64,000 nucleotides of DNA from Spongiibacter marinus (GCF_016906995.1 NZ_JAFBBD010000004.1:186001-250000); one strand, 5' to 3'. Shown: positions 18,717-34,788, counted from the first letter of the stretch. Translations and numbers: made by a program. Notes: a model not told the origin generated them from the sequence alone.

Positions 18717-19322
18717 TTAAGGCGCCATCAAACCGGCCACCAAAAATTTCTGTAATTCATCAAACAACATGGCCATATCGTCCGCCACCTCATCACCACC
18801 AAAGGGGCTGGGGAAGTGCACGCAAGACAGTGTATTGAGCATCGCTTCCACAGCGAAGCCATAGCGGAGTCGGCACTGCAGCAATGACAGATCCGGGCGC
18901 TGTTGCGCGAGCATGGCAGTCAGCGCATTGGCTGGCGACAGGAATTCATCCAGCAAGGGAGGCTCTTCCGACTGCTCGGCGTACACCCGGGCAATCACCC
19001 TGGCATACTGCCGCCCCGCGATGGCGTCTTCCGACAACACCTCGCGCAGCGGCGCAAGCAAGGTCCGAACAATATCGTCGATGGTGACCTTGGGCGCAGT
19101 GGCCAATTGTCGTAGCTGTCCTTCTCGCTCGGCCTTGGGTCGCATGCGGCTGCGAAGCACCGCATCGATCAACGCCCCCTTGTTTTTAAAGTGATAGTGA
19201 ACGGCCGCAGCGCTCAGACCCGCCGCCTCATTGACCTCCCGCAGCGACACCGACAGACCGCGCTCGGCAAACAGCTCGGTGGCAACAGCAATAATGTGAT
19301 TTCGTGATGACGGCTTAGCCAT
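18717..19322 (-). CDS. TetR-family regulator
   Basis: A repressor of 201 residues. Residues 1-55 are the TetR helix-turn-helix: HIIAVATELFAERGLSVSLREVNEAAGLSAAAVHYHF in sequence order. The C-terminal part is a helical ligand-binding domain. The ATG at 19322 gives the conventional MAKPSSRNH start; a longer frame outward runs through the operator. It is divergent from the ketosteroid-dehydrogenase-like flavoprotein gene, and an 18-base palindrome lies between them. Control of that gene and of itself is likely, with a steroid or CoA-thioester ligand as a guess from context. Confidence 0.88.
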   Translation of the reverse strand: MAKPSSRNHIIAVATELFAERGLSVSLREVNEAAGLSAAAVHYHFKNKGALIDAVLRSRMRPKAEREGQLRQLATAPKVTIDDIVRTLLAPLREVLSEDAIAGRQYARVIARVYAEQSEEPPLLDEFLSPANALTAMLAQQRPDLSLLQCRLRYGFAVEAMLNTLSCVHFPSPFGGDEVADDMAMLFDELQKFLVAGLMAP

Positions 19323-19349
19323 GGGGCGCTCTTTTGACTCGACATTAAT

Positions 19350-19367
19350 ACTTATCAAATGATAAGT
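19350..19367. promoter_or_regulatory. TetR-type operator palindrome
   Basis: ACTTATCA and TGATAAGT form a perfect 8+8 inverted repeat around AA, between the divergent TetR gene (start 19322) and the flavoprotein gene (start 19412). Size and place are as expected for a TetR operator. A single ACTTATC half-site also occurs at 21509-21515, ten bases before the start of the second TetR gene. Confidence 0.65.
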
Positions 19368-19411
19368 TAAAATTATCGACGTCACAAACAACAATAATGA
19401 GGTCCTGAAAG

Positions 19412-20902
19412 ATGGCAGCGAACGCCCGCATACGCCCGATTGAATCCGTTACTCACTTTGATATCACCACCGACGTGTTAATTTGCGGCTACGGGGGCGC
19501 TGGCGCTGCCGCGGCCCTTGAGGCTGCCGCGGCCGGCGCGAAGGTCTGTATTATTGAGCGCGCCAGCGCTGGTGGCGGTGCCACCGCGTTATCCAGCTGC
19601 GAAATGTATCTCGGAGGCAGTGGCGGCACCGCGCTGCAGAAAGACCTGGGCATACACGACAGTACTGAAAACCTACTAGCCTACCTACACGAAGCGCTGG
19701 GCCCCTACGGCGACAGCGAAAAAATTCGCTGTTACGCCGAGGGCGCGGCCGCTCACTTCGACTGGGTAGAGTCACTGGGTGTTAGCTATAAGCGTGCGGT
19801 AATGCATGAGCGCACCGTGGTGCCACTCAGCGACGAATCGCTGCTGTTTACCGGCAATGAAAAATCTTACCCCTTCAATACCATCGCTGAGCCAGTGCCG
19901 CGTGGCCACGTCCCCTCAAAGGAAGGTGACGAAGGCGGCAAAATTTTTATGGATGCAATTATGCAACGCGTTGATGAAGCGGGAGTGGACGTTGTTAACG
20001 ACTGCCGGGCACTGGCACTGCTGGCGGACAATACGGGGCGAATCTGTGGTGTTATCGCAAAACACGATAACCGCGAAATCGCGATTCGCGCCACGCGCGG
20101 GGTGGTGTTGACCACCGGCGGCTTTGTTATGAACGAGGCGATGACCCGCCAATATCTGCCAGAGATTCATCAATACGCGGTGCCCTACGGCAATAGCTAT
20201 GATATGGGCGACGGTATCCAGCTGGGGCTCGCGGCGGGTGGCCAAGCCATCAATATGGATCAGGCCTTCATGTCGTTCCCACTCTACCCACCCGCCAAGC
20301 TTACCTACGGCCTGCTGCTCAACCAGCGTGGCCAGCGTTACATCAATGAAGATGCCTACCTTGCCCGGTTGGCGCATTACTCCTGCCAGCAGCCTGAGCA
20401 AAAATTCTATTTACTTGTGCAGGAAGAGGACTACGAGGCCTCACATTACCTGGAGCGTGCACCGCTGATCGCCAGCGGTAACAGCATCGCTGAGGTGGCA
20501 TCAGAAGCCCCCTTCCCCCCCGGCGCGCTGGAAGATACCGTCGACTATTTTAATCGACATGCCAGTGAAGGGCGCGACCCGCTCTTCCACAAAACCTCCG
20601 AATGGCTAAAGCCGCTCAGTAAACCGCCTTACGCCCTGCTGGAGTATTCCGCCAGTGAAATGCGCGCAATCATTATGCCGGGCACCAATGGCCCGCTAAT
20701 CTTTACGCTCGGCGGCTTAAAAACACGTTGTAATGGCGAAGTACTCGATGTCGACAACCAGGCGATCCCCGGCCTCTTCGCCGCAGGCCGTGCAACCGCG
20801 GGCCTGCCGCGCACCGCAAAGGGATACGCCAGCGGCATGTCGGTGGGTGATGCGACATTCTTCGGTCGACTGGCGGGCAGGCAGGCGGCATTAAGCCAGT
20901 AA
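19412..20902 (+). CDS. FAD-binding_2 flavoprotein, ketosteroid-dehydrogenase-like
   Basis: A 496-residue flavoprotein of the fumarate-reductase/3-ketosteroid-dehydrogenase superfamily. The N-terminal dinucleotide fold reads LICGYGGAGAAAALEAAAAG and is followed by IERASAGGGATALSS. The mid-region has VLTTGGFVMNEAM. The end reads GLFAAGRATAG...GYASGMSVGDATFFGRLAG, where KstD proteins have a comparable G...G..FG..AG segment. The likely reaction is FAD-dependent dehydrogenation of a ring or a C-C double bond; a true delta-1-ketosteroid dehydrogenase is possible but not proven. It is divergent from a TetR gene. Its 3' end overlaps the next, convergent TetR gene by 12 bases. Confidence 0.82.
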   Translation: MAANARIRPIESVTHFDITTDVLICGYGGAGAAAALEAAAAGAKVCIIERASAGGGATALSSCEMYLGGSGGTALQKDLGIHDSTENLLAYLHEALGPYGDSEKIRCYAEGAAAHFDWVESLGVSYKRAVMHERTVVPLSDESLLFTGNEKSYPFNTIAEPVPRGHVPSKEGDEGGKIFMDAIMQRVDEAGVDVVNDCRALALLADNTGRICGVIAKHDNREIAIRATRGVVLTTGGFVMNEAMTRQYLPEIHQYAVPYGNSYDMGDGIQLGLAAGGQAINMDQAFMSFPLYPPAKLTYGLLLNQRGQRYINEDAYLARLAHYSCQQPEQKFYLLVQEEDYEASHYLERAPLIASGNSIAEVASEAPFPPGALEDTVDYFNRHASEGRDPLFHKTSEWLKPLSKPPYALLEYSASEMRAIIMPGTNGPLIFTLGGLKTRCNGEVLDVDNQAIPGLFAAGRATAGLPRTAKGYASGMSVGDATFFGRLAGRQAALSQ

Positions 20903-21499
20903 TTGGTGGCGAACCCCCTCAATCAACAGGGGTAAGGATATGTCGATGGGCTCCTGAGCAACCGCATTTGCCAAGCCTGTAAAGATCTCCGGCGACAGTG
21001 CCTCAGGCATCGCCGCCGCAGCCTCGCCCTGTTGCCAATGACCGGCATGCAAAGAGGCCCGCATACACACAGCGCCGACGACGAGCTGAATAGTCGCCAT
21101 ATAGACCCTCACCGAGGCATCTGTCGCCAATCCACTTTCCGCCAGCTTGGCGGCAAAGCGTTCTGTCACCCGGAGCGCGTTGCCGCCAAGGCGCAACTTT
21201 CCCAGCCAGGGCACCCAGGACATTTCGCTACACAGCGCCTGGTACATGCCCCGCGCGCTCACAGTCAGCCATTCATCCCAGGGCAATTGGTCATCGGGCA
21301 GCACCTCCGCGCGAGCGATAAATTCTTCAAAGGCTGCCCCCAGCAACTCATCTTTATTCGCAAAATGCTTGTACATCGCCATTGCGGAAACCCCCAGCTG
21401 ACTGGCAACGCGGCGCATCGATAATTTATCAACGCCAACATCGGCAATCAAGTCTAGCGCAGCATCCACAAAACGCTGGCGATTCAAACTGCCACTCAT
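20891..21499 (-). CDS. TetR-family regulator
   Basis: A 202-residue TetR repressor. The N-terminal helix-turn-helix is clear: FVDAALDLIADVGVDKLSMR, then QLGVSAMAMYKHFANKDELL. The C-terminus resembles the TetR_C-type helical domain with tryptophan-rich helices (LPWDEWL, MSWVPWLGKL). I start it at the ATG at 21499, preceded by CGAGGTGAT; an outer GTG in frame is possible. It lies 35 bases downstream of the P450 gene on the same strand, so the two are probably one transcript and this may be the P450 repressor. Its 3' end overlaps the flavoprotein gene by 12 bases. Confidence 0.88.
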   Translation of the reverse strand: MSGSLNRQRFVDAALDLIADVGVDKLSMRRVASQLGVSAMAMYKHFANKDELLGAAFEEFIARAEVLPDDQLPWDEWLTVSARGMYQALCSEMSWVPWLGKLRLGGNALRVTERFAAKLAESGLATDASVRVYMATIQLVVGAVCMRASLHAGHWQQGEAAAAMPEALSPEIFTGLANAVAQEPIDISLPLLIEGVRHQLLA

Positions 21500-21534
21500 A
21501 TCACCTCGACTTATCTTATTTGTAGCCAACACAA

Positions 21535-22995
21535 CTAAGCCGCTCCAGCGTGTTCACGACGCTCGACTCCTCCGCTTCCGCCACCGCCAGCGAGCCCGCG
21601 CTTAGCGGTAAAGCGGATCGGCAAGCACTGCAATGTACGTGCAAACATCGACGCCACATAGGGGGAAGGCCCCGCCAGGGAAAGGTTTTCGGTGCGCAGC
21701 AGAAACTCACGCAATACGATACGAATTTCCGTGCGCGCCAGCTCGCGACCAATGCAGGCGTGTATACCGTGACCAAATGTCAGGTGTTTTTTGCCGTTGC
21801 TGCGGTCAAGACGAATGTCATCGGGCGCCGTGAATACGCGCTCGTCGCGATTCCCCGCCGCCCACATTAGAAACACCCGGCTGTCGGCGGGCAAGTGTAC
21901 ACCGTGCAATTGCGTCGCGCTCTTGGTCCAACGAAAATGCCCCTGAAAGGCCGCTTCAAGGCGAAAGACCTCTTCGATAAAGACCGGCAGTAAGCCATCC
22001 AAATCCTCGCGCAGCTGCGTCTGGATTTCGGGGTTTTCAATTAACAGTTTCAGCGCATTCCCCATACTGGTCGCGGAGGAGTCCGACCCGGCGATCAGCA
22101 GCTGCATTACTGCGGAAACCGCGGTGTGCTCAGCCATCACCGCATCTTCGCCCGTGGCCGCCTGCACAAACACCGCGCTAAGATCATCGCGTGGCCGCCG
22201 CTTGGCCAGTATAAATTGCTGCCAGCAATAGCGATAAAACACCACCAGCTCTGCCTGACTGCGGGCTAGCGCCGCCCCATGAGCGATACCGCTTTGTGTG
22301 GCAATACCGTGCACACACCAGTCTTTTATTTTTTCATAGTCTGCTTCGGGAAAGCCCAGCATGCGAATGATCAGTCGCATGGGCAAGCGCCAGGCGAAGT
22401 CGCGCATAAACTCAAGTTCCCCTCTGTCGATGACCTCATCCATCATTTCCCGACAAAGCGCCGTCACCTCGTCTTCCATGGCCTTGACCACCCGCGCATT
22501 TAAACCGCGATGTCCGACCTTGCGCTCGGCGGTATGGGCCGGCGGATCAGACAGCGCCAACACGTCGCTGGGTATCACTCCCATCATTTCAAGGGGGCGC
22601 AACTTCGCCGCCTCGCGCTCGACACTGTGTCCAGGCTTTAGCCCTGCAATCACGCCCTGATGGGTAGACGAAAAAACGTCAGTGTTCCGGCTCACCTCAA
22701 CAATATCCTGATACCGGGATAGGCAGTAAATGCCATTGGGCAACTGGTAAACCGGGTAGTCGTCGCGCAGCATTTTGTAAAAGGCATAGGGGTTCTGAAA
22801 ACAGGCGTCTTCCAGCGGCCGAAAATCTTCCGGGCGCGTGGGCTGCCCCACGGCGATATTTCCCGTGGCGGTCTCGGCGCCCGGGCTGTCAACTCGCTTT
22901 GTGCGACGGGTATAGCGTCGCGCCGATAACCGCATTCCCCGCTCAATGAGGTGAGAAAGTAAACAACGGCGACTGTGGTAAAACGGACGATTCAT
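21535..22995 (-). CDS. Cytochrome P450
   Basis: A bacterial haem-thiolate monooxygenase of 486 residues. The haem loop FGHGIHACIG places the axial thiolate at about C414. The I-helix oxygen-activation motif is AGSDSSA and the K-helix ExxR is EVFR. The N-terminal 50 residues are basic and of low similarity to class I P450s, so the true start could lie inside; the ATG at 22995 has GAGG eight bases upstream. It is soluble, so it needs a ferredoxin and reductase, which are not adjacent. Neighbours suggest hydroxylation of a steroid or isoprenoid, but the subfamily cannot be assigned. Confidence 0.92.
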   Translation of the reverse strand: MNRPFYHSRRCLLSHLIERGMRLSARRYTRRTKRVDSPGAETATGNIAVGQPTRPEDFRPLEDACFQNPYAFYKMLRDDYPVYQLPNGIYCLSRYQDIVEVSRNTDVFSSTHQGVIAGLKPGHSVEREAAKLRPLEMMGVIPSDVLALSDPPAHTAERKVGHRGLNARVVKAMEDEVTALCREMMDEVIDRGELEFMRDFAWRLPMRLIIRMLGFPEADYEKIKDWCVHGIATQSGIAHGAALARSQAELVVFYRYCWQQFILAKRRPRDDLSAVFVQAATGEDAVMAEHTAVSAVMQLLIAGSDSSATSMGNALKLLIENPEIQTQLREDLDGLLPVFIEEVFRLEAAFQGHFRWTKSATQLHGVHLPADSRVFLMWAAGNRDERVFTAPDDIRLDRSNGKKHLTFGHGIHACIGRELARTEIRIVLREFLLRTENLSLAGPSPYVASMFARTLQCLPIRFTAKRGLAGGGGSGGVERREHAGAA

Positions 22996-23006
22996 AGCAG
23001 AGCCTC

Positions 23007-23051
23007 AGCAAGCTTCATTGCAGGTACTGGTAAAACTACCCGAGCAAGCTT
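23007..23051. repeat. Direct repeat in the P450/epoxide hydrolase gap
   Basis: AGCAAGCTT occurs at 23007-23015 and again at 23043-23051, 36 bases apart, in the 96-base region between the divergent P450 and epoxide-hydrolase-like genes. Each copy contains the palindrome AAGCTT. It could be a regulator site shared by both genes; chance is not excluded. Confidence 0.3.
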
Positions 23052-23091
23052 ACACTGTAAACCAGAAAATAATAACGGCGAGACACAAGCA

Positions 23092-23463
23092 ATGAACGAC
23101 AAGAATCAGCAAATAATCGACCAGTTTATGCAGGCGTGGAACCAGCGAAATCTCGAACAGATCATGGGTTTCTTTCACGAGGACGCCGAATACTGCAACA
23201 TTCCTATGGGACCGCCACACATTGGCAAAGCCGCCATACGCGAATTTATCGAGGGTTTTCTCAACAGCCTGGAAGACATTGAATTCATTGTGCACCACCA
23301 GCTTTGCGATGACGCTAATGGTGTTGTCATGAATGAACGCACAGACCGAATAAACCTGGCAGGCAAGACCATTGACCTGCCTGTTATGGGGGTATTTCTA
23401 TTGCGCGACGGGTTAATTCAGCAGTGGCGGGACTACTTTGATATGGCGCCCTTCAGCAGCTGA
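23092..23463 (+). CDS. Limonene-1,2-epoxide hydrolase-like protein
   Basis: A 123-residue SnoaL-like cone fold of the limonene-epoxide hydrolase type. From memory, the active site of that family is Y-x-N, R-x-D and W-x-D, and all are present: Y34 and N36 in EYCNIPM, R83 and D85 in ERTDR, W112 and D114 in WRDYFD. It should therefore open an epoxide by direct water attack. Homologues include mycobacterial EphG, known to act on cholesterol-5,6-epoxide. The ATG at 23092 gives the family length; a longer frame reaches back into the gap. Divergence from a P450 gene suggests the P450 or a neighbour makes the epoxide. Confidence 0.85.
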   Translation: MNDKNQQIIDQFMQAWNQRNLEQIMGFFHEDAEYCNIPMGPPHIGKAAIREFIEGFLNSLEDIEFIVHHQLCDDANGVVMNERTDRINLAGKTIDLPVMGVFLLRDGLIQQWRDYFDMAPFSS

Positions 23464-23467
23464 GTGC

Positions 23468-24475
23468 TTACAGGGCGGCACGGCTAAGCTCTGCCGCGAG
23501 GCTAACGCCGCGATCCAGGCACCAGAATACCGATATCGCGCCCATGCTGTATATCAGCGCATAGCGCAATGGCGGCTCCCAACGCGAAACCGAGCGCAGG
23601 GCTGCCAGCACCGCGGCCAGTGCTGCAACAAAAACTAGCTGCCCGAGCTCAATGCCAATATTAAAGGCCAACACCGCCTTGAGCAGGTGTCCACTGGGCA
23701 GACCCAGTTCCGCCAATACGCCGGCAAAGCCCAGCCCGTGCACCAAACCGAACAGCAGCGCCATCGGCCAGGGGTGGCGGCGCAAAATACCGCCAGCGCG
23801 GCCAGATGCCGGGCGCGTTAATTCCAGGGCCAACAGTAAAATCGTTGCCGCGATAGCCAACTCCACCAAGGCCGGCCAATGCGGCAACACGTCGATGCTC
23901 ACCAGCACCAAGGTGATACTGTGCCCGACCGTAAACGCGGTAATGGTCAACAACAGCAGGCGCCATGTGCTAACCAGTAACAGCAGCCCCGCTACAAATA
24001 ATAAATGATCCAAACCAATTAAGATGTGGCTGAAGCCCAGGCCCAAATACTGTGTAAAGACGCTGCCCTGCGATGCTTTTTCGGCAAATTCAAAGCGCGG
24101 GGCGTCCGCCGTTAGGAGTGTTTCGAATAGCTCACCGCGTTCATTCTGAACACGCAATAAGGCCGTTGTACGACTCTGCTGCAAGCCCGTGATGGCGATG
24201 CTCTGCCCAGACAAGGGGCTTGAACAATGCAGTTTCCAGCGCCACTCCAGGGCCGTTCCCTGAGGCGAAATATTCGGCGCTGAAGGTGAACACGCAGCGG
24301 GAAACTGCGGATGCGGCGGTCGCTGTGCGTCAGCTGGCGTGCGAAACAGCACCTGATATTCAGCATTGCCTACTGCGCGAAATTCCAGCAACGACGGCGC
24401 TAATTTATGTGCCCAGCTCGCCCCAGCAAACAGCATTAGTCCCGCCAGGAATGATAGGCGCCAAAATACATTCAT
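23468..24475 (-). CDS. HupE/UreJ-like membrane protein
   Basis: A 335-residue membrane protein. A signal sequence (1-22, ending GASWA) precedes a periplasmic domain (about 23-135) with two cysteines (AACSP and LHCSS). A C-terminal bundle of about six helices follows with the HupE/UreJ_2 motifs: LGFSHILIGLDHLLFVAGLL, FTVGHSITLVL, and FGLVHGLGFAGVLAELG with several histidines in helices. HupE proteins are linked to nickel or cobalt uptake, but this long form with an extracytoplasmic domain has no proven role. Its start overlaps the parvulin gene stop by 4 bases (ATGA), so the two are translationally coupled. Confidence 0.85.
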   Translation of the reverse strand: MNVFWRLSFLAGLMLFAGASWAHKLAPSLLEFRAVGNAEYQVLFRTPADAQRPPHPQFPAACSPSAPNISPQGTALEWRWKLHCSSPLSGQSIAITGLQQSRTTALLRVQNERGELFETLLTADAPRFEFAEKASQGSVFTQYLGLGFSHILIGLDHLLFVAGLLLLVSTWRLLLLTITAFTVGHSITLVLVSIDVLPHWPALVELAIAATILLLALELTRPASGRAGGILRRHPWPMALLFGLVHGLGFAGVLAELGLPSGHLLKAVLAFNIGIELGQLVFVAALAAVLAALRSVSRWEPPLRYALIYSMGAISVFWCLDRGVSLAAELSRAAL

Positions 24476-25416
24476 GGGCTGCGCACTCGGTAACGTTGGC
24501 GTAATTGCTCTATGAAGCCCTGGAGGTTGTCTGCGCGCTGCTGTTGTAACAGCTCCTCGCGCAGCGGCGACCTAACGCTGTCAAATGCGCGCTCAGTAGC
24601 AGGATGAAAGCCCGTTATCTTAACCAGATGTAAACCATACGCCGAGGCAACGGGGCCCTGCCAATTGGAAGACTGCAACGACGCTGCTGAGTGCTGTTGC
24701 ATCCACTGGGAAAAAGATTCACCAAAACTGCGCTCCAGGTGGTATGCCGAGACTTGAGACATCTCAGAGCCAAGCAGAAAGCTGTCTCCCTGTGAGAGAG
24801 CCGCGGCGTCACTGAGTGCCCCACTACGCAGCCGTTGGAGTAGGTCTTGGGCCCGCTGTTGCATACCTCGTTTGTCTGCACTGATAAAAACATGCTGGAA
24901 GCTATAACTCGGTTCACCGCTCCAGCGCGCTCTATCGGCCTCGTAAGCAGCCCTCAGCTGGGCTTCCGTTGGCGCTGTTAACGCTCCGGAAGCGCTGCCG
25001 AGTGCTTCCATGCGCTGTATTAAACGGCGCTGAATCACTTCGTCACCGCGATGGAGCTCCAAGGACAACGCCGTATTCATCTGCTGCTCAGCGCTGCCGT
25101 CCATCCCCAGGAAAGCCGCGTTGCGCAATAGCCGTTGTTTGACAACAGGGTCGCTCAAATGCAGCTCTCGGCGCAGTGCTTCGCTAAACAATATGCGTTG
25201 GTCAATTTCATGTTGACGCAGCGCCGCGTGCTGCGCCGAGGAAAGCGGTCGCCCCTGCAGTGTTTCGACTTGCACAGCAGCATCGATCAAAAACGCCGCA
25301 TCGGGCGCCGTAATTTGATAAGCGGCGTATTGCAGCCGCCAATGCTCTGCCGCATACAACAGGCAACCCAGCACAAGAAAATGTATCAGCGGACGCCGAT
25401 ACCAAGGCTTGATCAT
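24472..25416 (-). CDS. Membrane-anchored parvulin-type prolyl isomerase
   Basis: A 314-residue predicted folding catalyst. One N-terminal transmembrane anchor (about 8-24, PLIHFLVLGCLLYAA) faces an extracytoplasmic region. A SurA-like helical part (residues 40-150) has a DQRILFSEALRRELHL pattern. A PpiC-type rotamase domain follows, with FQHVFIS near 175, GSEMSQV and the closing segment GPVASAYGLHLVKITG. The domain order resembles PrsA/PpiD-type chaperones. It overlaps the thioesterase gene upstream and the HupE-like gene downstream by 4 bases each. The tight coupling suggests it helps fold the HupE-like protein's periplasmic domain, which is inference. Confidence 0.85.
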   Translation of the reverse strand: MIKPWYRRPLIHFLVLGCLLYAAEHWRLQYAAYQITAPDAAFLIDAAVQVETLQGRPLSSAQHAALRQHEIDQRILFSEALRRELHLSDPVVKQRLLRNAAFLGMDGSAEQQMNTALSLELHRGDEVIQRRLIQRMEALGSASGALTAPTEAQLRAAYEADRARWSGEPSYSFQHVFISADKRGMQQRAQDLLQRLRSGALSDAAALSQGDSFLLGSEMSQVSAYHLERSFGESFSQWMQQHSAASLQSSNWQGPVASAYGLHLVKITGFHPATERAFDSVRSPLREELLQQQRADNLQGFIEQLRQRYRVRSP

Positions 25417-25907
25417 TCGCCATCCAACCAGGTATTTCGCGGCGGCCGCAATTGACTACCAATATTTAGCGGCAGCGGCTGCGCCAGATTTTCGCGGACT
25501 TGCTTACGCAAAAAGCGCTGCAGCGATTCGGGCATGTCTGCTGAGCGCCGCGCTTGTAAGTCGATATGAATGTCCACTTGCTCAGATGTGGCGCTGCGGC
25601 ATTGCCGGCTGCAGTTATACAGCTCGTGGAAGAAATGCAGACGCTTATTATCGACCGCCAGCAGCCAACACCGCACCTCCAGCTGGTCGCCCAACCCGGC
25701 CTCACGCTCATAGCGCATATGGCTTTCCAGCACTGCTTTGCCACACCGGGCCCGGTCGACATACTCCTCATTAAAGCCTAGCCATTCACTGTGCGCGGCG
25801 TGCGCCTCGTAGATCACCAAACCAAAGTGCGTCGCATTCATATGGCCGTTTACATCGATCCACTCAGGCTTTACCGCTCCGCGATAACCAATATAGGGCT
25901 GATTCAT
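25413..25907 (-). CDS. Hotdog-fold acyl-CoA thioesterase
   Basis: A 164-residue 4HBT-type thioesterase that probably hydrolyses an acyl-CoA or acts in its transfer. The family pattern WIDVNGHMNATHFGLVIYEA is clear and includes the aspartate and histidine near residue 20. It is followed by ESHMRYEREAGLGDQLEV, the second conserved block. The ATG at 25907 with GGGAG five bases upstream is preferred over the GTG two codons further out. Its stop overlaps the parvulin start (ATGA), and it lies 51 bases downstream of the isomerase-like crotonase gene, so it belongs to the same leftward transcript. Confidence 0.87.
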   Translation of the reverse strand: MNQPYIGYRGAVKPEWIDVNGHMNATHFGLVIYEAHAAHSEWLGFNEEYVDRARCGKAVLESHMRYEREAGLGDQLEVRCWLLAVDNKRLHFFHELYNCSRQCRSATSEQVDIHIDLQARRSADMPESLQRFLRKQVRENLAQPLPLNIGSQLRPPRNTWLDGE

Positions 25908-25958
25908 TTTCACTCCCTGGGCTCAATCAAATATTGGCAACCCTCACCTCACAGAGAG

Positions 25959-26729: not shown

Positions 26730-26745
26730 AGTTATCTCGCTCTAT

Positions 26746-27417
26746 TCAGGAAAAGAACCGCAGGCAATTGTCTGAGGTGTCGCGCTGGGTTCGGCAATTA
26801 TTCACTGCGGCATCGGTGTCTTCTTCGCCGAAGGAGATACCAAATAGCAGTTTATTTTCCGCACCTATTCCCAGTACCTCTCGCACTAGGTCGGCATTAA
26901 AGCTCAGTGCCGTCTGCGGACAACTGGCCAAGCCCTCTGCTGTCAGAGCCAGCATCAGGCTTTGGGCATACATGCCGCAATCGGCTGCTTCGCGTAAACC
27001 GAAGGGCTCGGGCAGGAAAATAAATGCCACGTGCGGCGCACCAAAAAACCGAAAGTTTTGCATGAATTGTTCATTGCGCCCGGCTTTATCCTCGCGGGCA
27101 ATCCCCATCGCGCTATATAGGTCAGTCGCTGCCTGGTATTGGCGCTCCTTGTACACCCCTTGGTATTGGCCATCGTAGGGAAAGTCCATGGTCCACTGCC
27201 CTGCGGTAAATGCTTCCGGAATCGCTGATCTGAGTACTTCCAATCGCTCACCACTGACCACCGCGCACAACCACGGTTGCGTGTTACAGTTCGACGGCGC
27301 TTGCTGCGCAGCGCGAAAAATCTTCTGTAAGCGCGCCTCGGCTATCGGCTCGGGGCGAAATGCGCGAACTGACCGCCTGCGCTCTAGCACGTCGTAAAAA
27401 GCGTGTGCGTGATTCAT
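26746..27417 (-). CDS. Nitroreductase-family flavoprotein
   Basis: A 223-residue FMN oxidoreductase. The FMN-phosphate region LERRRSVRAFRPEPI near the N-terminus, the APSNCNTQPW stretch and the MYAQSLMLALTAEGLASCPQ dimer/FMN segment are typical of the family. Such enzymes use NAD(P)H to reduce nitro groups, quinones or activated double bonds; the natural substrate here is not evident. It sits between the alpha-methylacyl-CoA racemase (12 bases) and isomerase genes (16 bases). A role in reducing or removing a conjugated double bond in a CoA intermediate is a reasonable guess. Confidence 0.9.
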   Translation of the reverse strand: MNHAHAFYDVLERRRSVRAFRPEPIAEARLQKIFRAAQQAPSNCNTQPWLCAVVSGERLEVLRSAIPEAFTAGQWTMDFPYDGQYQGVYKERQYQAATDLYSAMGIAREDKAGRNEQFMQNFRFFGAPHVAFIFLPEPFGLREAADCGMYAQSLMLALTAEGLASCPQTALSFNADLVREVLGIGAENKLLFGISFGEEDTDAAVNNCRTQRDTSDNCLRFFS

Positions 27418-27429
27418 TCTCTCTCCCTA

Positions 27430-28569
27430 TCAGTCTGTACTAACCGCATTCCCCGCAATTAGCGACTCGATCTTTTCTGTATCGAAACCCAGTTCCTGCA
27501 GTAGCTCCCGGCTTTGAGCGCCACTCACCGCTGGGCCACTTTGTATTTCACCGGGAGTGCGAGACAACCTCGGCGCGACGCCAGTTTGAACCACGCCATC
27601 GCGTTCAACAAGGTTCCCTCGCTGGGCGTTATGTGGGTGGTCGATTGCCTCATCTAACGGCACAATCGGTGCTACGCAGGCATCAGTGCCGTCGAAAATC
27701 GCGCACCACTGTGCCTGGGTCTTTTCCTTAACTCGCGCAGCGATCTGCTCACGCTGACGCGGCCAATCGGCTTTGTTCAACTGCACGCTGTAGTCTGTGC
27801 CACCAAAATCAATATCCAGTTTTTCCAGCAACAACGCATAAAACTGTGGCTCGATTGCGCCGAAGGAGATATAGCGCCCGTCTTTGCACTCATAGTTGCG
27901 GTAAAACGGCGCGCCGCCATCAAGCATGTTGTGCTCTCGCTCGGCATCCCAGAAGTCGATCGCTTTGAGGCCGTGCAGGGTGCTCATTAACGATGCCGCG
28001 CCGTCGCAAATTGCCGCATCGATAACCTGTCCTTTGCCTGACTGGCTTCGCTCATGCAACGCCGCCAGCATTCCCATCACCAGAAATAGCGAGCCGCCAC
28101 CCAGATCGCCCGCCACGTTCAGGGGCACCGGTGGTGGGCGGTCAGCATCGCCCATGCTTGCCAACATGCCACTTAAGGCGATGTAATTAATATCGTGACC
28201 GGCTGTCATTGCCAGCGGCCCGTTTTGCCCCCACCCCGTCATGCGACCGTATATCAACCTTTCATTTGACTGACAGCAAACCTCGGGGCCCAGGCCTAGC
28301 TTTTCCATCACACCGGGTCGGAAACCTTCGACAAGCATGTCGGCACTATCGATCAGCTGTCGGGCAAGCGCGAGTCCGTCTTCTGATTTCAGGTTTAAGG
28401 CTATCGAGCGCCGACCACGGGTGCTGACATCACCCGGCTGGCCCAGTGCGCCGCTGCGATCAATTCGGATCACCTCAGCGCCCAGGTCGGATAACAACAT
28501 ACAGGCGTAAGGCCCGGGGCCAATGCCGGCCATCTCGATAACTCTCACGCCGTTTAGTGGCCCAGACAT
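27430..28569 (-). CDS. Alpha-methylacyl-CoA racemase
   Basis: A class III CoA-transferase-fold protein of 379 residues with the racemase signature. It epimerises the alpha-methyl centre of branched acyl-CoAs so that S-specific dehydrogenases can act. The catalytic pair seen in the M. tuberculosis racemase is kept: H125 and D126 in AGHDINYIALSG, and D155 in VAGDLGGGS. The N-terminus VRVIEMAGIGPGPYACMLLS also matches. This enzyme is needed for sterol side chains and pristanic-type acids, which supports the proposed cluster function. An 87-base gap with a GC-rich hairpin separates it from the EchA19-like gene upstream. Confidence 0.92.
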   Translation of the reverse strand: MSGPLNGVRVIEMAGIGPGPYACMLLSDLGAEVIRIDRSGALGQPGDVSTRGRRSIALNLKSEDGLALARQLIDSADMLVEGFRPGVMEKLGLGPEVCCQSNERLIYGRMTGWGQNGPLAMTAGHDINYIALSGMLASMGDADRPPPVPLNVAGDLGGGSLFLVMGMLAALHERSQSGKGQVIDAAICDGAASLMSTLHGLKAIDFWDAEREHNMLDGGAPFYRNYECKDGRYISFGAIEPQFYALLLEKLDIDFGGTDYSVQLNKADWPRQREQIAARVKEKTQAQWCAIFDGTDACVAPIVPLDEAIDHPHNAQRGNLVERDGVVQTGVAPRLSRTPGEIQSGPAVSGAQSRELLQELGFDTEKIESLIAGNAVSTD

Positions 28570-28623
28570 AGCCTCATCCTTCTTAGTGGGGGAATTATTG
28601 GTATTGAGAAGGGGGTCGCGGGT

Positions 28624-28648
28624 AGCGGCGGAAGCATCGTCCGCCGCT
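28624..28648. repeat. GC-rich hairpin between crotonase and racemase genes
   Basis: AGCGGCGGA (28624-28632) and TCCGCCGCT (28640-28648) pair perfectly with a 7-base loop, between the crotonase stop at 28657 and the racemase start at 28569. No T run follows on the transcribed strand. It may be an mRNA processing or stability element between genes of one transcript. Confidence 0.4.
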
Positions 28649-28656
28649 GCGACGGT

Positions 28657-29478
28657 CTATTCGCCGATGAATTCGGCGGGACGTTTTTCTTTGAAGGCGC
28701 GCATGCCCTCTTTGGCATCCTTGGAGGCAAACACCGGGCCTGCCAGCTCATCGGACTTCAGCATCGCCTCGTCTTCTGCCAGGTGCTCCGTGTGCTCACG
28801 CAATGAACGCGTCACCGCTTTCACCGCCAGCGGACCATTTGCACAGATTTTTTCGGCTATTTTCTTCGCTTCGTTCAAGGTTTCACCCTTGGGCACAATG
28901 CGGTTAATCAAGCCAAATTCCAGCGCCTGCTGTGCACTAACGTGCTCACCAAGCAGCAGAATTTCAGCGGCAATGCAGTAGGGAATTTGTTTGCGCAGAC
29001 GCACAGTTGAGCCGGACATCGGATATAGGCCACGCGCCACTTCCGTCACACCGAAGATGGCATCCTCAGCCGCAACGCGAATATCAGTACCCTGAAGAAT
29101 TTCCGTTCCACCCGCCAGCGCATAACCTTCCACAGCAAGGATCAATGGCTTGCAGGGGCGGTTGTCACGCAGCAGTGCCTGCCAATGGATATTGGGCACT
29201 GTGGCCATCAATTCCATAAACTCTTCCGTGCTGCGCTGTTGGCCATCCGCTCCGGCCTTAAGATCCATTCCCGCACAAAAGGTATCGCCGTTGGCGGTAA
29301 GAATAGCGCAGCGAAGATCGTCGTCTTCATCCAGCAAGCGCCACGCTTTATAGAGCCCCAACAGCATTTCAGGGCTGAACGCATTTTTTGCTTCCGGGCG
29401 GTTCAGGGTAACAATCAGTACGTGGCCGTCTTTTTCAACGATGCAGTTTTCGGTACTGATAGGCAGTTCGGTAGGCAT
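28657..29478 (-). CDS. Enoyl-CoA hydratase, EchA19-like
   Basis: A crotonase of 273 residues. Key segments are FCAGMDLKAGADG (oxyanion hole), AVEGYALAGGTEILQGTD and GLYPMSGSTVRLRKQIPY. By recall these are close to M. tuberculosis EchA19 (Rv3516), an enoyl-CoA hydratase of cholesterol side-chain degradation. The likely reaction is hydration of the C22 unsaturated steroid-CoA or a similar branched enoyl-CoA. The ATG at 29478 has GGAG six bases upstream; an outer in-frame start adds six residues. It follows the FadD19-like gene on the same strand with an 86- to 104-base gap containing a hairpin. Confidence 0.9.
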   Translation of the reverse strand: MPTELPISTENCIVEKDGHVLIVTLNRPEAKNAFSPEMLLGLYKAWRLLDEDDDLRCAILTANGDTFCAGMDLKAGADGQQRSTEEFMELMATVPNIHWQALLRDNRPCKPLILAVEGYALAGGTEILQGTDIRVAAEDAIFGVTEVARGLYPMSGSTVRLRKQIPYCIAAEILLLGEHVSAQQALEFGLINRIVPKGETLNEAKKIAEKICANGPLAVKAVTRSLREHTEHLAEDEAMLKSDELAGPVFASKDAKEGMRAFKEKRPAEFIGE

Positions 29479-29551
29479 GATTGGCTCCATTAGCAATTCA
29501 TTGTTATGAGAATAAGTGAAAAGCAGCGGCCATGAATGCGGGCAGAGTGTG

Positions 29552-29574
29552 CCGGAGTAGCATCGCTACCCCGG
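29552..29574. repeat. Hairpin between acyl-CoA synthetase and crotonase genes
   Basis: CCGGAGTAGC (29552-29561) pairs with GCTACCCCGG (29565-29574), nine of ten bases, around a 3-base loop. It lies between the fadD-like stop at 29583 and the downstream crotonase start at 29478. No T run follows. It is similar in place to the hairpins at 28624-28648 and 31368-31406. Confidence 0.4.
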
Positions 29575-29582
29575 CCCAGGGA

Positions 29583-31214
29583 TCAGGAAACCTGCCCCTC
29601 ACCACTCAGCGCAAAGGCTTTTGCTGTTTTATAGTCGGGCTTGCCGCTGGGGGCGCGAGGAATTTCTGCAATGATATGCACCTCGCGTGGCACCTTGTAA
29701 CCCGCCACATGTTTGCGGCAATGCTCTTGAACATTCTTAAGGTCGAGGTCGACACCCTCGCGCGCCTGAATAACCGCACTCACGCGGCTACCCCAACGCT
29801 CGTCGGGAACGCCAATGACCAGTGCATCGAAGACACCGTCGTGGGCCTTAAGCGCGTCTTCAACCTCTTCGGGGAAAATTTTCTCACCACCGCTGTTAAT
29901 ACAGTTTGAGCCGCGACCGAAGACAGTAATTGACCCATCTTCTTCCAGCTTGGCGGCATCCCCCGTCAACAACCAGGTTTTACCGTCCACCTCAACGAAG
30001 GTCTTGGCGGTTTTTTCAGGGTCATTGTAGTAGCCCATTGGGATGTAACCCGCGCGAGCAAAGATACCGGTTTCGCCGAGTTCAGCGTGACGACGCGGCT
30101 GGTCTGGCTCGTCGATAATCACGTCCATGTAGTCGGTACGACTAACGTTGCCAAGTCCCGATGCCGTTTTCTTGCTGCCGTTATCCATGCCCATTTGGCC
30201 GCCTTCCGACGAACCAAACGCGTTGGTAACAAAGACATTAGGGAAATGCTTCTTGAAGGCCTCTTGCTTGGCTTCAGAGAAGATCGCACCGCCTGAACCA
30301 ACGTTAAATACTGCCGACAAATCCCAGCGACCGGGGTTCGCATCGAGTGCATCCAACAGGGGAATGGCCATGGCATCGCCAACGATCTGCACAGCATTCA
30401 CTTTTTCGTCCGCAACGATCTGCCATACCTCGGCACCGTCGAAGGAGCGATTGTGATTAAGCACCAGCTTGTTGCCCGCAAGCAGCTGGATACAGGCATA
30501 CCACCACGATGCGCCATGCATCAACGGCGCCAGTGCGATACCGGTCAGCGGGTGCTCGCCAACGCGCTCGGTAATATCTTCGGGCTTCTCACAGGGGCCG
30601 AGTGGCGAAAAGTGACCGCCGCCGCCCATCGCCGCAAAAAATACATTTTTATGCGGCCACATAACGCCCTTAGGCATGCCCGTAGTACCACCGGTGTAGA
30701 GAACAAAGTAGTCGTCATCGGCACGCTCAGCGAAATCGCGCTTGGCGCTCTGCCCTTCACAGGCCTGCGCGTAGTCGATAGAACCAATGCTGGCGATGTC
30801 TGCATCGCTACCGTCATCCACCGACACAAATACTTTCAGTTTCTTCGCCGCCGAACGAACTTCGGCAATATGCGGGGCGAACTCGCGGTGATGCACACAG
30901 GCAACCATGTCTGCATTATCAAAGATGTAAAGCAGCTCATCTTTCACATAGCGGTAGTTAACATTGATAGGCACCGCGCGAATTTTGAAGCAAGCCAGCA
31001 TCGCTTCCAGATATTCGTTGCAGTTGTACATGTACAAACCAACGTGGTCGCCGGCCTTCACACCCTGACTGCTCAGGTAGTGGGCCATACGGTTGGCGCC
31101 AGCATCAAGCTCGGCGTAGGTCGCACGGCTACTGCCACATACCAGCGCTTCACGGCTGGGTACTTTATCGGCAACGGCTTCAAACAAATCCGCAAGGTTA
31201 AAATGCATGCTCAT
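29583..31214 (-). CDS. Steroid-type acyl-CoA synthetase, FadD19/FadD17-like
   Basis: An ATP-dependent acyl-CoA ligase of 543 residues that activates a carboxylic acid side chain to its CoA ester. The P-loop is YTGGTTGMPKG (173-183), the adenylation motif is in FGSSEGGQMGM, the hinge region is near GRGSNCINSGGEKIFPEEVE, and the C-terminal catalytic lysine is in APSGKPDY. The segments VMWPHKN, GDAMAIPLLDAL and NSGGEKIFPEEVEDALK resemble, from memory, M. tuberculosis FadD19, the C24-C26 sterol-CoA ligase. A 203-base gap with hairpins and a palindrome precedes it, so it may have its own promoter. Confidence 0.93.
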   Translation of the reverse strand: MSMHFNLADLFEAVADKVPSREALVCGSSRATYAELDAGANRMAHYLSSQGVKAGDHVGLYMYNCNEYLEAMLACFKIRAVPINVNYRYVKDELLYIFDNADMVACVHHREFAPHIAEVRSAAKKLKVFVSVDDGSDADIASIGSIDYAQACEGQSAKRDFAERADDDYFVLYTGGTTGMPKGVMWPHKNVFFAAMGGGGHFSPLGPCEKPEDITERVGEHPLTGIALAPLMHGASWWYACIQLLAGNKLVLNHNRSFDGAEVWQIVADEKVNAVQIVGDAMAIPLLDALDANPGRWDLSAVFNVGSGGAIFSEAKQEAFKKHFPNVFVTNAFGSSEGGQMGMDNGSKKTASGLGNVSRTDYMDVIIDEPDQPRRHAELGETGIFARAGYIPMGYYNDPEKTAKTFVEVDGKTWLLTGDAAKLEEDGSITVFGRGSNCINSGGEKIFPEEVEDALKAHDGVFDALVIGVPDERWGSRVSAVIQAREGVDLDLKNVQEHCRKHVAGYKVPREVHIIAEIPRAPSGKPDYKTAKAFALSGEGQVS

Positions 31215-31235
31215 AGTGGGTCCCTGTTAGATCAA

Positions 31236-31254
31236 CGCCGCCTCGACGGCGGCG
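31236..31254. repeat. Hairpin in the fadD-like 5' leader
   Basis: CGCCGCC (31236-31242) pairs with GGCGGCG (31248-31254) around TCGAC, about 22 bases upstream of the acyl-CoA synthetase ATG at 31214. A stem this close to the start could affect translation of the synthetase mRNA. Confidence 0.4.
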
Positions 31255-31276
31255 CCAATTTGTTTAATTGTTATCT

Positions 31277-31292
31277 CTGCGATGACTCGCAG
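31277..31292. promoter_or_regulatory. Candidate operator upstream of fadD-like gene
   Basis: CTGCGA and TCGCAG form a perfect 6+6 inverted repeat around TGAC, 63 bases before the synthetase start. It could be a repressor site controlling a promoter in the ltp3-fadD gap. Based on symmetry and position only. Confidence 0.3.
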
Positions 31293-31367
31293 TAATGTAT
31301 CGCAACCGTATTGCCGGGCAGGCCAGAACGGCGTATAGCCCAACACAGTAACAAGGCCATTCTCACC

Positions 31368-31406
31368 CAGCCATCCTCCCAAGGGACGAGTTAAGGGGGA
31401 TGGCTG
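31368..31406. terminator. Strong hairpin after the ltp3-like gene
   Basis: CAGCCATCC (31368-31376) pairs with GGATGGCTG (31398-31406) over nine bases, extended inward by CCC/GGG, starting 12 bases past the ltp3-like stop at 31418. The loop is long and no T run follows. It may mark the 3' end of the DUF35-ltp4-ltp3 message or be a partial terminator before the fadD-like gene. Confidence 0.45.
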
Positions 31407-31417
31407 ATGACCATTTG

Positions 31418-32581
31418 TTAATGCTTTTCGCTGCTCACTACCCACATTGAGTAGAACTGGGCACCACCGCCATAGGCGTGACCCAATGCCGTCTTGGCAC
31501 CGTCCACTTGATGGTCTCCCGCTTCACCGCGCACCTGCTGCGCAGCTTCGGCAAAGCGAATCATGCCCGAGGCACCAATCGGGTTCGACGACAGTACGCC
31601 ACCAGAGCAGTTCCAGGGAATATCGCCACCTTCCAGCAAGGAGGTTGCGCCGCTCATGGTGAGCTCCCAACCCTTACCGTCTTCGGCAAAACCGAGGTTT
31701 TCCAGCCACATGGGCTCATACCAAGAAAATGGCACGTAGACTTCGGCGCAATCGAGGTCCTTGCGAGGATTGTCGATACCCGCTTGCTTGTACACATCCT
31801 TCGCACAATCGCGGCCCGCTTGCGGATTAACCTGCTCACGACCGGCGTACATAGTCGGCTCAGAGCGCATTGCCGCACCGCGAATCCACGCCGGTTTGCC
31901 CGGTGATTGCTCGGCAAGATCTTCGTTGGCAATCACCATCGCGCAGGCACCATCAGACGACGGACAGGCCTCAAGGAAGCGCAGTGGCTCCCACAGCATT
32001 GGGCTGTCTTCGACCTCTTTCATAGTAATTTCTGGCAGCTGTAGATGCGCCAGCGGGTTTTTGGCACCGTGCAGGCGGTCTTTAACGGCAACTTTAATAC
32101 CCGCGTCATAAGGGGCATTAGAGCGGCGCATGTACTCGCGAATAATCGGCGCAAAATAACCGCCAGCACCCGCATTCAAGTGTGGAGAAAATGGCTGAGG
32201 GTTGGACAATGCCCACATGGCGTTGGACTCGGATTGCTTCTCAAACGACACCGTGAGAATGCGTTTGAACACGCCGCTCTGCACGTAGGATGCCGCCACG
32301 ATAGCCGTGGAGCCCCCAACGGAGCCGGCGGTGTGCACGCGCAGCATTGGCTTGCCGTTACAACCCAGTGCATCGGTGAGGTACAGCTCGGGCATGATAA
32401 CGCCCTCGAACATGTCCGGCGCCTTGCCGAGGATGACGGCATCGATGTCATCCCAGGTTAGCTGGGCATCATTGAGCGCATTCTGCGCCGCTTCGCGAAC
32501 CAAGCCCGCGATCGATACGTCGCCGCGCTTTGTTTTGTATTTGGTCTGACCGACGCCGACCACAGCAGCTAATTGAGCCAT
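31418..32581 (-). CDS. Thiolase-fold protein, Ltp3-like, without nucleophilic Cys
   Basis: A lipid-transfer-protein-type thiolase of 387 residues. The N-terminus LAAVVGVGQTKYKTKRGDVS and the segments FEGVIMPELYLTDALG and CPSSDGACAMVIA resemble, from memory, M. tuberculosis Ltp3 (Rv3523). Where SCP-x thiolases carry the nucleophilic cysteine (NNNCATGSTA), this protein has Ser at position 87 (HTAGSVGGSTA). Classic thiolysis by this subunit is therefore unlikely; a retro-aldol or partner-dependent reaction on a steroid-type CoA is more probable. The ATG at 32581 shares its A with the TAA stop of the upstream ltp4-like gene (TAATG), and GGAGG lies just before, so the pair is translationally coupled. 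Confidence 0.87.
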   Translation of the reverse strand: MAQLAAVVGVGQTKYKTKRGDVSIAGLVREAAQNALNDAQLTWDDIDAVILGKAPDMFEGVIMPELYLTDALGCNGKPMLRVHTAGSVGGSTAIVAASYVQSGVFKRILTVSFEKQSESNAMWALSNPQPFSPHLNAGAGGYFAPIIREYMRRSNAPYDAGIKVAVKDRLHGAKNPLAHLQLPEITMKEVEDSPMLWEPLRFLEACPSSDGACAMVIANEDLAEQSPGKPAWIRGAAMRSEPTMYAGREQVNPQAGRDCAKDVYKQAGIDNPRKDLDCAEVYVPFSWYEPMWLENLGFAEDGKGWELTMSGATSLLEGGDIPWNCSGGVLSSNPIGASGMIRFAEAAQQVRGEAGDHQVDGAKTALGHAYGGGAQFYSMWVVSSEKH

Positions 32582-33639
32582 TATTGGGCCTCCAGTACAG
32601 TTACCAGGTTTTGTTGCAGACACGGCCCCGACGTTGCGTGTGCCACGCCGCGCTTGCCTTCACCGTTGATTAATCGCATGGCCACTTCACCGATGCGCGA
32701 CAGGCCAGAGGCCATCATCACATTGCCTGCCAACACGCCGCCCGACGGGTTTACCTTGGTGTCATCGGATAAATTCAGCGCCCGGCGCAGGATGATTTCC
32801 TGGTGGCTGAACGGCGCATACAACTCGGCAATATCCACCGGCCCTTGCGCGACGCCAGCCGCCTCAGCCGCTTGTTTGGTAGAGATTGATTGCGTTAGAT
32901 CGCGCGAGCCGATGTGGTGGGTCTCGATGCGGTGATCAATCCCCTTAATCACGGCATAGGGCTTACCCCATTCTTTAGCCTTCTCGACGGTGCATATAAT
33001 CATTGCACAAGCGCCATCAGAGATTGGGCAGCAATCGTGGCGACGCAGTGGCGATTCATACTCAGGCTCGGCGAGCAGCTCATCAACACTGACATCACCC
33101 TTCAACTGAGCGTGGGGGTTGTTGGCGGCGTTTTTGCGTGAGCGCGCAACGACCTCAGCCATCTCGGCTTCAGTAATCAAACCCTGCTCCAGCATCACCC
33201 GCGCCTGCATGGCAGCAAAGGCAATGGTGTCCACCCAGAGTGGCGCCAAGTAGTAGGGGTCGAGCTGTTGAGAGAGTACGATCGGCAATTCGCCTGGCGA
33301 CGACTTACCAAAGCCGTAAATCAGTGCCGACTCGGCCTGGCCCATTTGAATTTTTAGCCAAGACTCATAGAGCGCCCAGGCGGCGTCCATCTCAACGTGT
33401 GACTCTTTAATGGGTGGCACGGCACCCAGCGCGTCAACACCCGCCACAAATGCGAAGGCTGCGCCCTGCTGGTAGTCGCAACTACCAGAGCAGGTGAAGT
33501 CAACATCCTGAGCACTGTTAATACCCGTCTGCTTGTAGACTTCCTGCAAGACCGGCATGATCAGCTCAACTTCGTTGCGAGCGCCAGCATCGCGCACACA
33601 ATCAGACTGGGCAAAGGCTACAATAGCTACATCGCGCAT
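32581..33639 (-). CDS. Thiolase-fold protein, Ltp4-like, without N-terminal Cys
   Basis: A second lipid-transfer-type thiolase homologue of 352 residues. Aligned to SCP-x thiolase through FGKS/GFEK, the nucleophile position falls in VEMDAAWAL, with no cysteine. C-terminal features remain: CCPISDGACAMII, PSGGVLAGNVMMASG, and GPCLQQNLV with a cysteine near residue 340. It resembles M. tuberculosis Ltp4 (Rv3522) by recall. It is 1 base from the DUF35 gene stop and overlaps the ltp3-like start by 1 base, which predicts a stoichiometric complex of the three proteins acting on a CoA ester. Confidence 0.86.
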   Translation of the reverse strand: MRDVAIVAFAQSDCVRDAGARNEVELIMPVLQEVYKQTGINSAQDVDFTCSGSCDYQQGAAFAFVAGVDALGAVPPIKESHVEMDAAWALYESWLKIQMGQAESALIYGFGKSSPGELPIVLSQQLDPYYLAPLWVDTIAFAAMQARVMLEQGLITEAEMAEVVARSRKNAANNPHAQLKGDVSVDELLAEPEYESPLRRHDCCPISDGACAMIICTVEKAKEWGKPYAVIKGIDHRIETHHIGSRDLTQSISTKQAAEAAGVAQGPVDIAELYAPFSHQEIILRRALNLSDDTKVNPSGGVLAGNVMMASGLSRIGEVAMRLINGEGKRGVAHATSGPCLQQNLVTVLEAQ

Positions 33640-33640
33640 C

Positions 33641-34618
33641 TTAACGGCCCCCTTTTTTCAATTTGCCAATTTCTTCCACCGGAACATCGGGCTCGTCGAT
33701 GGGCTTGAAGTACTGGATATTTTCCATGGCATAGCCCCACTCTTCTTCGGGCTTCCACACGGCTTCAACCCGCATACCAATACGCACATCTTCGTTCTTA
33801 CACTCACTAAGCAGGTGCAGGAAACTGATATTGGCGCCGTCTAGCACCAGGTTTGCAATCACGTAGGGCGGCTTGATCGGGTTGTTGGGAATGGGGATAT
33901 ACACGATAGTGAACGACTCGACGGTAGCCTTATTGGTCAATTCAACTTCGTCGGTTGTCGCCACACCACAGGCAGCGCAGCTACCGCGTGGGGGAATATA
34001 AACGTTTTCACAGGAGGGGCAGCGCTGTCCTACCAACTTACCTTTCTTGAGTTCAGCCAGGTAACGTGCGGTCGCGCCACCTGCTGTGAAGTTGTAGGTC
34101 AGGTAACTGGGCGAGTCGATACCCGTGATAGGCTCTTCCGCCTCATTAGCTTGGTAGTCTTCACTCAGCGCGGTCGCCTCGGGAACAAAACCATTGATAT
34201 CAGAGATTAAGCCCTGGGTTTTCTCTGCCCAGCGCGCTTTTACACGCATACCCGTAGACATCTGCGCCGCATCATCTGCATCCACCCAATGAAGCATGGG
34301 CGTATCAGCGCCATCGAGCTTAATCAGCGCCCAGGCAAAGGGTTTGTCGCTGGGGTGCGCCTTACGCGGCTCACTGACCCAGCTCCACGTTTGCACAACG
34401 CCGCAATCGGCAACATCCACAAAATCGCTCAGCGCTTGCGCACTCACTGGATCAAATTCGACCGGCGGCATAAGCACCTTGCCGTCGCTGCCTTTGATAC
34501 CGACCATTTTCCGGTCGCGCAACGCTGTGAGAAACTGGCCCACAATAGGGCCGGTTGAACGGGTATAGGTATACCCCAATGTAAAGGCCTGACTTAAAAT
34601 TTCAGCCGATGAAGACAT
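33641..34618 (-). CDS. Tandem DUF35 OB-fold/zinc-ribbon protein
   Basis: A 325-residue partner protein for thiolase-type enzymes. It has two DUF35 units in tandem. The second (about 180-305) has a complete zinc ribbon, C200, C203, C214 and C217 in CPSCENVYIPPRGSCAACG, then an OB fold. The first (about 20-135) shows the same layout (KMVGIKGSDGKVLMPPVEF) but has lost all ribbon cysteines. DUF35 proteins bind and activate Ltp-type aldolases and thiolases, as with ChsH2-Ltp2. By recall Rv3521, next to ltp4 and ltp3 in M. tuberculosis, has a similar length. It is first in the three-gene unit, divergent from the YbaN-like gene. Confidence 0.88.
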   Translation of the reverse strand: MSSSAEILSQAFTLGYTYTRSTGPIVGQFLTALRDRKMVGIKGSDGKVLMPPVEFDPVSAQALSDFVDVADCGVVQTWSWVSEPRKAHPSDKPFAWALIKLDGADTPMLHWVDADDAAQMSTGMRVKARWAEKTQGLISDINGFVPEATALSEDYQANEAEEPITGIDSPSYLTYNFTAGGATARYLAELKKGKLVGQRCPSCENVYIPPRGSCAACGVATTDEVELTNKATVESFTIVYIPIPNNPIKPPYVIANLVLDGANISFLHLLSECKNEDVRIGMRVEAVWKPEEEWGYAMENIQYFKPIDEPDVPVEEIGKLKKGGR

Positions 34619-34672: not shown

Positions 34673-34760
34673 GATAGTGCAATAGCAGGCCCAGATTTGG
34701 CTTGCCGGAGGAGTATCTCTGTGAGGCTTAAACCAGACAATGTCGCTGCTGATCACTCTG

Positions 34761-34788
34761 CTGACAAAAACGATCAGCGCGCTAAAAT
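34761..34788 (+). promoter_or_regulatory. Candidate promoter for the YbaN-like gene
   Basis: CTGACA (34761-34766) and TAAAAT (34783-34788) are 16 bases apart and lie about 40 bases before the ATG at 34828. This is a fair sigma70 match that would drive the YbaN-like and ZIP transporter genes. Confidence 0.45.

Follow-up and report, generated by a model that had tools for sequence, protein, structure and literature searches.

Eight closely spaced, co-directional genes on the minus strand of Spongiibacter marinus DNA, reading from 34618 to 25959, probably form a sterol side-chain catabolic module. The substrates would most likely be C24-alkylated sterols of plants and algae, possibly also cholesterol, and the host would be a 9,10-seco degrader of the family Spongiibacteraceae; we put the probability of this reading at roughly 0.7. 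An earlier note had described the gene set as an analogue of the mycobacterial sterol module. The sterol side-chain reading stands, supported by the reciprocal match of FadD19, the reverse match of EchA19, the family identity of Ltp3 and Ltp4, the actinobacterial loci and the co-occurrence with KshA, but the label "analogue" does not: judged by sequence comparison, the core of the module is a homologue of the actinobacterial module for C24-branched side chains. Positions are those of the window, the whole stretch of 64,000 nucleotides that was analysed (186001-250000 of contig C4, in a genome of 3.57 Mb). The module and its neighbours comprise the following genes.

33641-34618, minus strand: two-domain DUF35 protein, Rv3521-like (Pfam: two OB_ChsH2_C stretches, one zf-ChsH2; cysteine columns)
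32581-33639, minus strand: Ltp4-like thiolase-fold subunit, PRK07937 (NF005924)
31418-32581, minus strand: Ltp3-like thiolase-fold aldol-lyase candidate, PRK08313 (NF006180)
29583-31214, minus strand: FadD19-like steroid-CoA ligase, PRK07798 (NF005863; reciprocal best match with actinobacterial FadD19)
28657-29496, minus strand: EchA19 enoyl-CoA hydratase, PRK07799 (NF005864; PDB matches; reverse search)
27430-28569, minus strand: alpha-methylacyl-CoA racemase with H125/D155 (PDB: M. tuberculosis MCR)
26746-27417, minus strand: NfnB-like FMN nitroreductase-fold oxidoreductase (Pfam Nitroreductase; PDB 2wzv)
25959-26729, minus strand: second crotonase-family enzyme, hydratase/isomerase (Pfam ECH_1; position conserved)
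25413-25913, minus strand: 4HBT thioesterase, co-directional, outside the conserved core (Pfam; next to the module in the nearest relative alone)
21535-22995, minus strand: cytochrome P450, neighbour, not core (nearest solved structures CYP144 and CYP125; adjoins the module also in G388)
19412-20902, plus strand: flavoprotein nearest to 3-ketosteroid-delta4-(5alpha)-dehydrogenase, neighbour, not core (4AT0)

All ORFs that the earlier note named are found in 18717-34618, and the conserved unit within this stretch is 25959-34618. Comparison of the relatives' loci reveals the same eight-gene order within the genus, and the sister genus keeps the order with the DUF35 gene split. In Halieaceae the order is DUF35-ltp4-ltp3-fadD19-echA19-nitroreductase-crotonase, and the racemase is usually absent. 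The genes in 18717-25913 (TetRs, FAD enzyme, P450, EphG-like protein, HupE, PPIase and thioesterase), which the left boundary of the note takes in, were excluded from the core because the relatives' loci do not keep them together with it, a comparison in which the relatives' stretches often stopped short of the genes for the FAD enzyme and the TetRs. The thioesterase, PPIase and HupE genes adjoin the module in the nearest relative only, and the EphG-like gene, like the P450, does so also in G388. The ltp3 ORF was called from a GTG at 32623; its probable ATG start at 32581 overlaps the ltp4 stop.

Curated family models support the naming of the core proteins. Ltp4 scores 499 bits against NF005924 (cut-off 419), Ltp3 667 bits against NF006180 (cut-off 514) and the ligase 691 bits against NF005863 (cut-off 543), in agreement with the Ltp4-like, Ltp3-like and FadD19-like assignments of the earlier note, and the protein it called a tandem DUF35 indeed has two OB_ChsH2_C stretches and one zinc ribbon. 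EchA19 is placed less firmly: it passes the cut-off of the PRK07799 family (343 bits against NF005864, cut-off 316), is the best match in the reverse search and has mycobacterial EchA19 as its closest solved structures in a PDB search, but misses the stricter equivalog NF051848 (333 bits, cut-off 400). A PDB search with FadD19 gave no match at 1e-60. The reciprocal comparison proposed in the note was made with Amycolatopsis and Prauserella genomes. In three actinobacterial genomes FadD19 of the window finds one protein per genome at 490-523 bits, the next at 180 bits or less, and this best match is the copy adjoining ltp4 and ltp3. In the S. marinus genome, Amycolatopsis FadD19 finds the window copy at 524 bits, with the next match at 117 bits. 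FadD19 thus agrees in both directions, and EchA19 was compared from actinobacterium to S. marinus only, where Amycolatopsis EchA19 finds the window copy at 263 bits and the next protein at 175 bits.

Pseudonocardiaceae loci carry fadD19 and echA19 divergently, followed by DUF35-ltp4-ltp3, and the Saccharopolyspora locus has an additional Rv3520c-type enzyme before DUF35. Set against the actinobacterial Rv3515c-Rv3523 module of the KstR regulon, the S. marinus genes for FadD19, EchA19, the two-domain DUF35 protein, Ltp4 and Ltp3 form a cluster of orthologues, with DUF35-Ltp4-Ltp3 in the identical order. It is because of the FadD19 and EchA19 matches, together with actinobacterial loci that hold the same genes, that we regard the core as homologous. 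Unlike the actinobacterial module, the S. marinus genes are all co-directional, include a racemase, a nitroreductase and a second crotonase, and have no adjacent Rv3520c-type enzyme.

The module mostly occurs in genomes with steroid-ring genes. Ltp4 is present in 18 of 21 Spongiibacteraceae genomes and a strong KshA match (E of about 1e-70 or lower) in exactly the same 18, the other three having none or only one at 8e-28; a KshA_C match is also found in 21 of 24 further Ltp4 holders, 17 of which reach at least 170 bits, the co-occurrence as a whole coming mostly from one family with counts uncorrected for phylogeny. The holders that have no KshA_C match are one Sterolibacterium bin and two actinobacterial bins. 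In S. marinus, an hsaA-hsaC-kshA triplet occurs twice, at C4:287-290 kb (L073) and C4:322-325 kb (L075), and an hsaD-like gene lies close to a third kshA copy (C4:175-177 kb), about 9 kb to the left of the window. The HsaA, HsaC and HsaD models are the best matches of these proteins, yet the scores lie under the equivalog cut-offs. Ltp2 is encoded at C3:353366 and exceeds its cut-off. CYP125-like P450s are encoded at C5:46206 and C2:74052; CYP125 was rejected as a perfect companion of the module, as G385 has one without Ltp4 and the only ones in G381 and G382 are distant.

The flavoprotein at 19412-20902, described earlier as KstD-like, falls below cut-off in the KstD models and is nearer to 3-ketosteroid-delta4-(5alpha)-dehydrogenase (4AT0, 362 bits) than to KstD (94 bits); identity as KstD was therefore rejected. 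A second protein of 496 aa with an N-terminus similar to that of this flavoprotein is encoded at C8:53.7 kb (L164:3689-5179, minus strand). The P450 to the left of the module has CYP144 and CYP125 as its nearest solved relatives, and the EphG-like protein contains an LEH/SnoaL domain.

Which sterols the module serves is assigned from genetics in other bacteria. FadD19 in M. smegmatis is required for C24-branched, not for straight, side chains (PMC6273163), and the same source, citing Wilbrink 2012, relays the same finding for R. rhodochrous Ltp3 and Ltp4. These phenotypes make it unlikely that the module acts on cholesterol, other straight-chain C27 sterols or C24 bile acids and not on C24-branched sterols, even though a 2018 study describes cholesterol-growing isolates in Spongiibacteraceae and Halieaceae (PMC5790920) and the racemase could resolve the C25 epimers of cholestenoic acid. 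Bile acids are cleaved in proteobacteria via Sal-Shy with a MaoC domain (PMC11321319), whereas the module has no MaoC. The earlier note had allowed for branched steroid or isoprenoid acids, and the steroid half of this proposal fares better. Alpha-methylacyl-CoA racemases and crotonases act on methyl-branched acyl-CoAs generally, and among the relatives of the genome's P450s those of CYP124 type hydroxylate methyl-branched lipids, as would suit a module for the breakdown of branched fatty acids, acyclic isoprenoid or methyl-branched, such as pristanic acid. This alternative loses weight because the module goes together with steroid-ring genes, its presence following KshA within the family and mostly beyond it too, and because the known phenotypes of FadD19, Ltp3 and Ltp4 orthologues concern sterols; we consider it quite improbable. 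That the genes are a loose grouping of general fatty-acid enzymes with a coincidental mycobacterial likeness is scarcely credible, for while paralogous crotonases and AMP-ligases are numerous (the S. marinus genome has 16 crotonase-like and 7 ligase-like matches at E <= 1e-20), the score gaps to the next paralogue are large, the order is conserved in two families, Ltp4 is rare (2 of 369 over the cut-off in a class sample), and the reciprocal matches and synteny already contradict it.

If the module is indeed for C24-alkylated sterol side chains, a CYP125-type P450 encoded elsewhere would oxidize C26 to the acid, FadD19 would form its CoA ester and the racemase would set the configuration of the C25 methyl group. 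Desaturation and hydration would follow, by a dehydrogenase encoded elsewhere and by EchA19 and/or the second crotonase. Ltp3, together with Ltp4 and the two DUF35 domains, would then cleave the beta-hydroxyacyl-CoA in a retro-aldol reaction with Tyr296 as the base. The nitroreductase probably performs, with a flavin, a redox step that in actinobacteria falls to the F420 enzyme Rv3520c. Gene identities, conservation, co-occurrence and residues are what the analysis observed; the substrate, the order of steps, the complex and the roles of the nitroreductase and second crotonase we infer. The closest solved relative of the racemase is M. tuberculosis MCR (376 bits), to which the H125/D155 pair pointed out earlier aligns. 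The His/Asp pair is common to both proteins, but unlike MCR the S. marinus racemase is encoded inside a sterol module.

The residues of the thiolase-fold proteins argue for cleavage of this kind. In Ltp3, Gly100 (numbered from the GTG at 32623) replaces the thiolase nucleophile Cys, and Glu83 lies at the nucleophile position in Ltp4. In the alignment both have Pro at the Cys of the HDCF motif and Asn at the His of the GHP motif. An SCP2-type thiolase was thus rejected, and since the nucleophile Cys, HDCF Cys and GHP His are all missing, thiolysis by Ltp3 or Ltp4 is unlikely. The YVPF motif of Ltp3, with Tyr296, is invariant in 90 of 90 sequences, and the corresponding position in Ltp4 is Tyr or His. 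In characterized steroid aldolases the motif Tyr is the catalytic base (PMC12329534). We expect catalysis to reside in Ltp3, with Ltp4 as the partner subunit. In common with the ChsH2-Ltp2 and Shy-Sal aldolases, the S. marinus set combines DUF35 with a thiolase-fold protein that lacks the nucleophile Cys and has a Tyr in the HDCF-equivalent motif. The motif is YVPF/YAPF in S. marinus, compared to YDHF or YDCY in ChsH2-Ltp2 and Shy-Sal. The second catalytic residue of such aldolases is Tyr344 in TcLtp2 or Cys304 in CtSal, and the position of CtSal Cys304 is Pro in both Ltp3 and Ltp4. The S. marinus set also differs from these aldolases in having two different thiolase-fold subunits, two DUF35 domains and no MaoC. 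The N-terminal DUF35 domain lacks the zinc cysteines and the C-terminal domain carries C200/C203/C214/C217. The two DUF35 domains differ from each other, as do the two Ltp subunits, which suggests a heteromeric version of the DUF35-aldolase complex already published. Among the loci compared (L066-L069, L085-L158), 59 encode the DUF35 halves as neighbouring genes and 39 as a single ORF, although a few of the actinobacterial cases may be ORF-calling artefacts. Fusion is seen in several separate lineages.

The closest solved relative of the nitroreductase is NfnB (2wzv, 185 bits). It is encoded beside the module in 40 loci, none of which has an Rv3520c-type enzyme, and five loci have an Rv3520c-type enzyme and no nitroreductase. 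In gammaproteobacterium G161 an F420-type enzyme of the Rv3520c family (TIGR03559, 421 bits, cut-off 335) directly follows the racemase (L081:1800-2825, minus strand), the position taken by the nitroreductase in Zhongshania. This mutual exclusion, together with the position in G161, suggests replacement of one enzyme by the other; G161 aside, the split tracks phylogeny. A bolder and rather doubtful proposal is that marine Gammaproteobacteria have an F420-free pathway for C24-alkyl sterols, in which the NfnB-like nitroreductase would perform the Rv3520c step, a heteromeric Ltp3-Ltp4-DUF35N-DUF35C complex would carry out the cleavage and an undescribed regulator would bind a tandem TGATC-N6-GTCA. 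In such a pathway the nitroreductase might, for instance, handle the unsaturated side chains of algal sterols.

Two sequence features precede the DUF35 gene.

34741-34776, minus strand: tandem operator-like element, TGATCGTTTTTGTCA-N6-TGATCAGCAGCGACA (generalised pattern matches)
34712-34740, minus strand: promoter-like TTGTCT-N17-GATACT (upstream alignment of 14 genomes, read by eye)

The block upstream in Zhongshania is TGATCGTTTTTGTCA-N6-TGATCAGCAGCGACATTGT, conserved amid diverged sequence, and the GATACT part of the promoter-like sequence is conserved there as well. The generalised pattern has 30 matches in 3.44 Mb of loci searched on both strands, all of them 100-172 bp before a DUF35 gene and all in Zhongshania and Halieaceae, two families; as the pattern was shaped on these same sequences, the count measures specificity and is not an independent discovery. 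About 0.4 Mb of the S. marinus genome gave no convincing further copy. KstR sites have been described at Rv3515c/Rv3516 and Rv3520c/Rv3521 (PMC1995591). The KstR motif (the AACN1-3GTT palindrome) was not found in the upstream region of the window, which unlike the actinobacterial module has the tandem element instead. A KstR operator characterises how the actinobacterial version is regulated and has no part in the chemistry. By its sequence this element is operator-like and differs from the KstR motif.

Algal and plant sterols are mostly C24-alkylated, and to our knowledge the degraders of such sterols in the sea are poorly known. The module offers a genetic hypothesis for marine sterol use and, in DUF35-Ltp4-Ltp3, a marker of the bacteria concerned. 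With its DUF35 genes split and its Ltps unequal, it also makes the poorly understood mycobacterial Ltp3-Ltp4 chemistry testable in another host. This kind of module is already known from Actinobacteria, and the proteobacterial version appears to be new: the open-access literature searched contained no description of the module in Proteobacteria, and the text of the 2018 study of cholesterol-growing isolates does not mention fadD19 (PMC5790920).

The nearest named relatives of Ltp4 and Ltp3 are those of Zhongshania. The combined Ltp4 and Ltp3 tree divides into a side made up mainly of Pseudomonadota and an Actinomycetota/Myxococcota side, and the module adjoins der in Spongiibacteraceae and several Halieaceae. 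The der neighbourhood and the tree point to old residence in the group, and a recent transfer from Actinobacteria is not favoured. Two bins in the tree probably carry wrong titles: Ltp4 and Ltp3 of a bin titled Klebsiella pneumoniae (L124) group with uncultured Pseudomonadales, and those of a bin titled Thermoanaerobacterales (L128) group with Acidimicrobiales.
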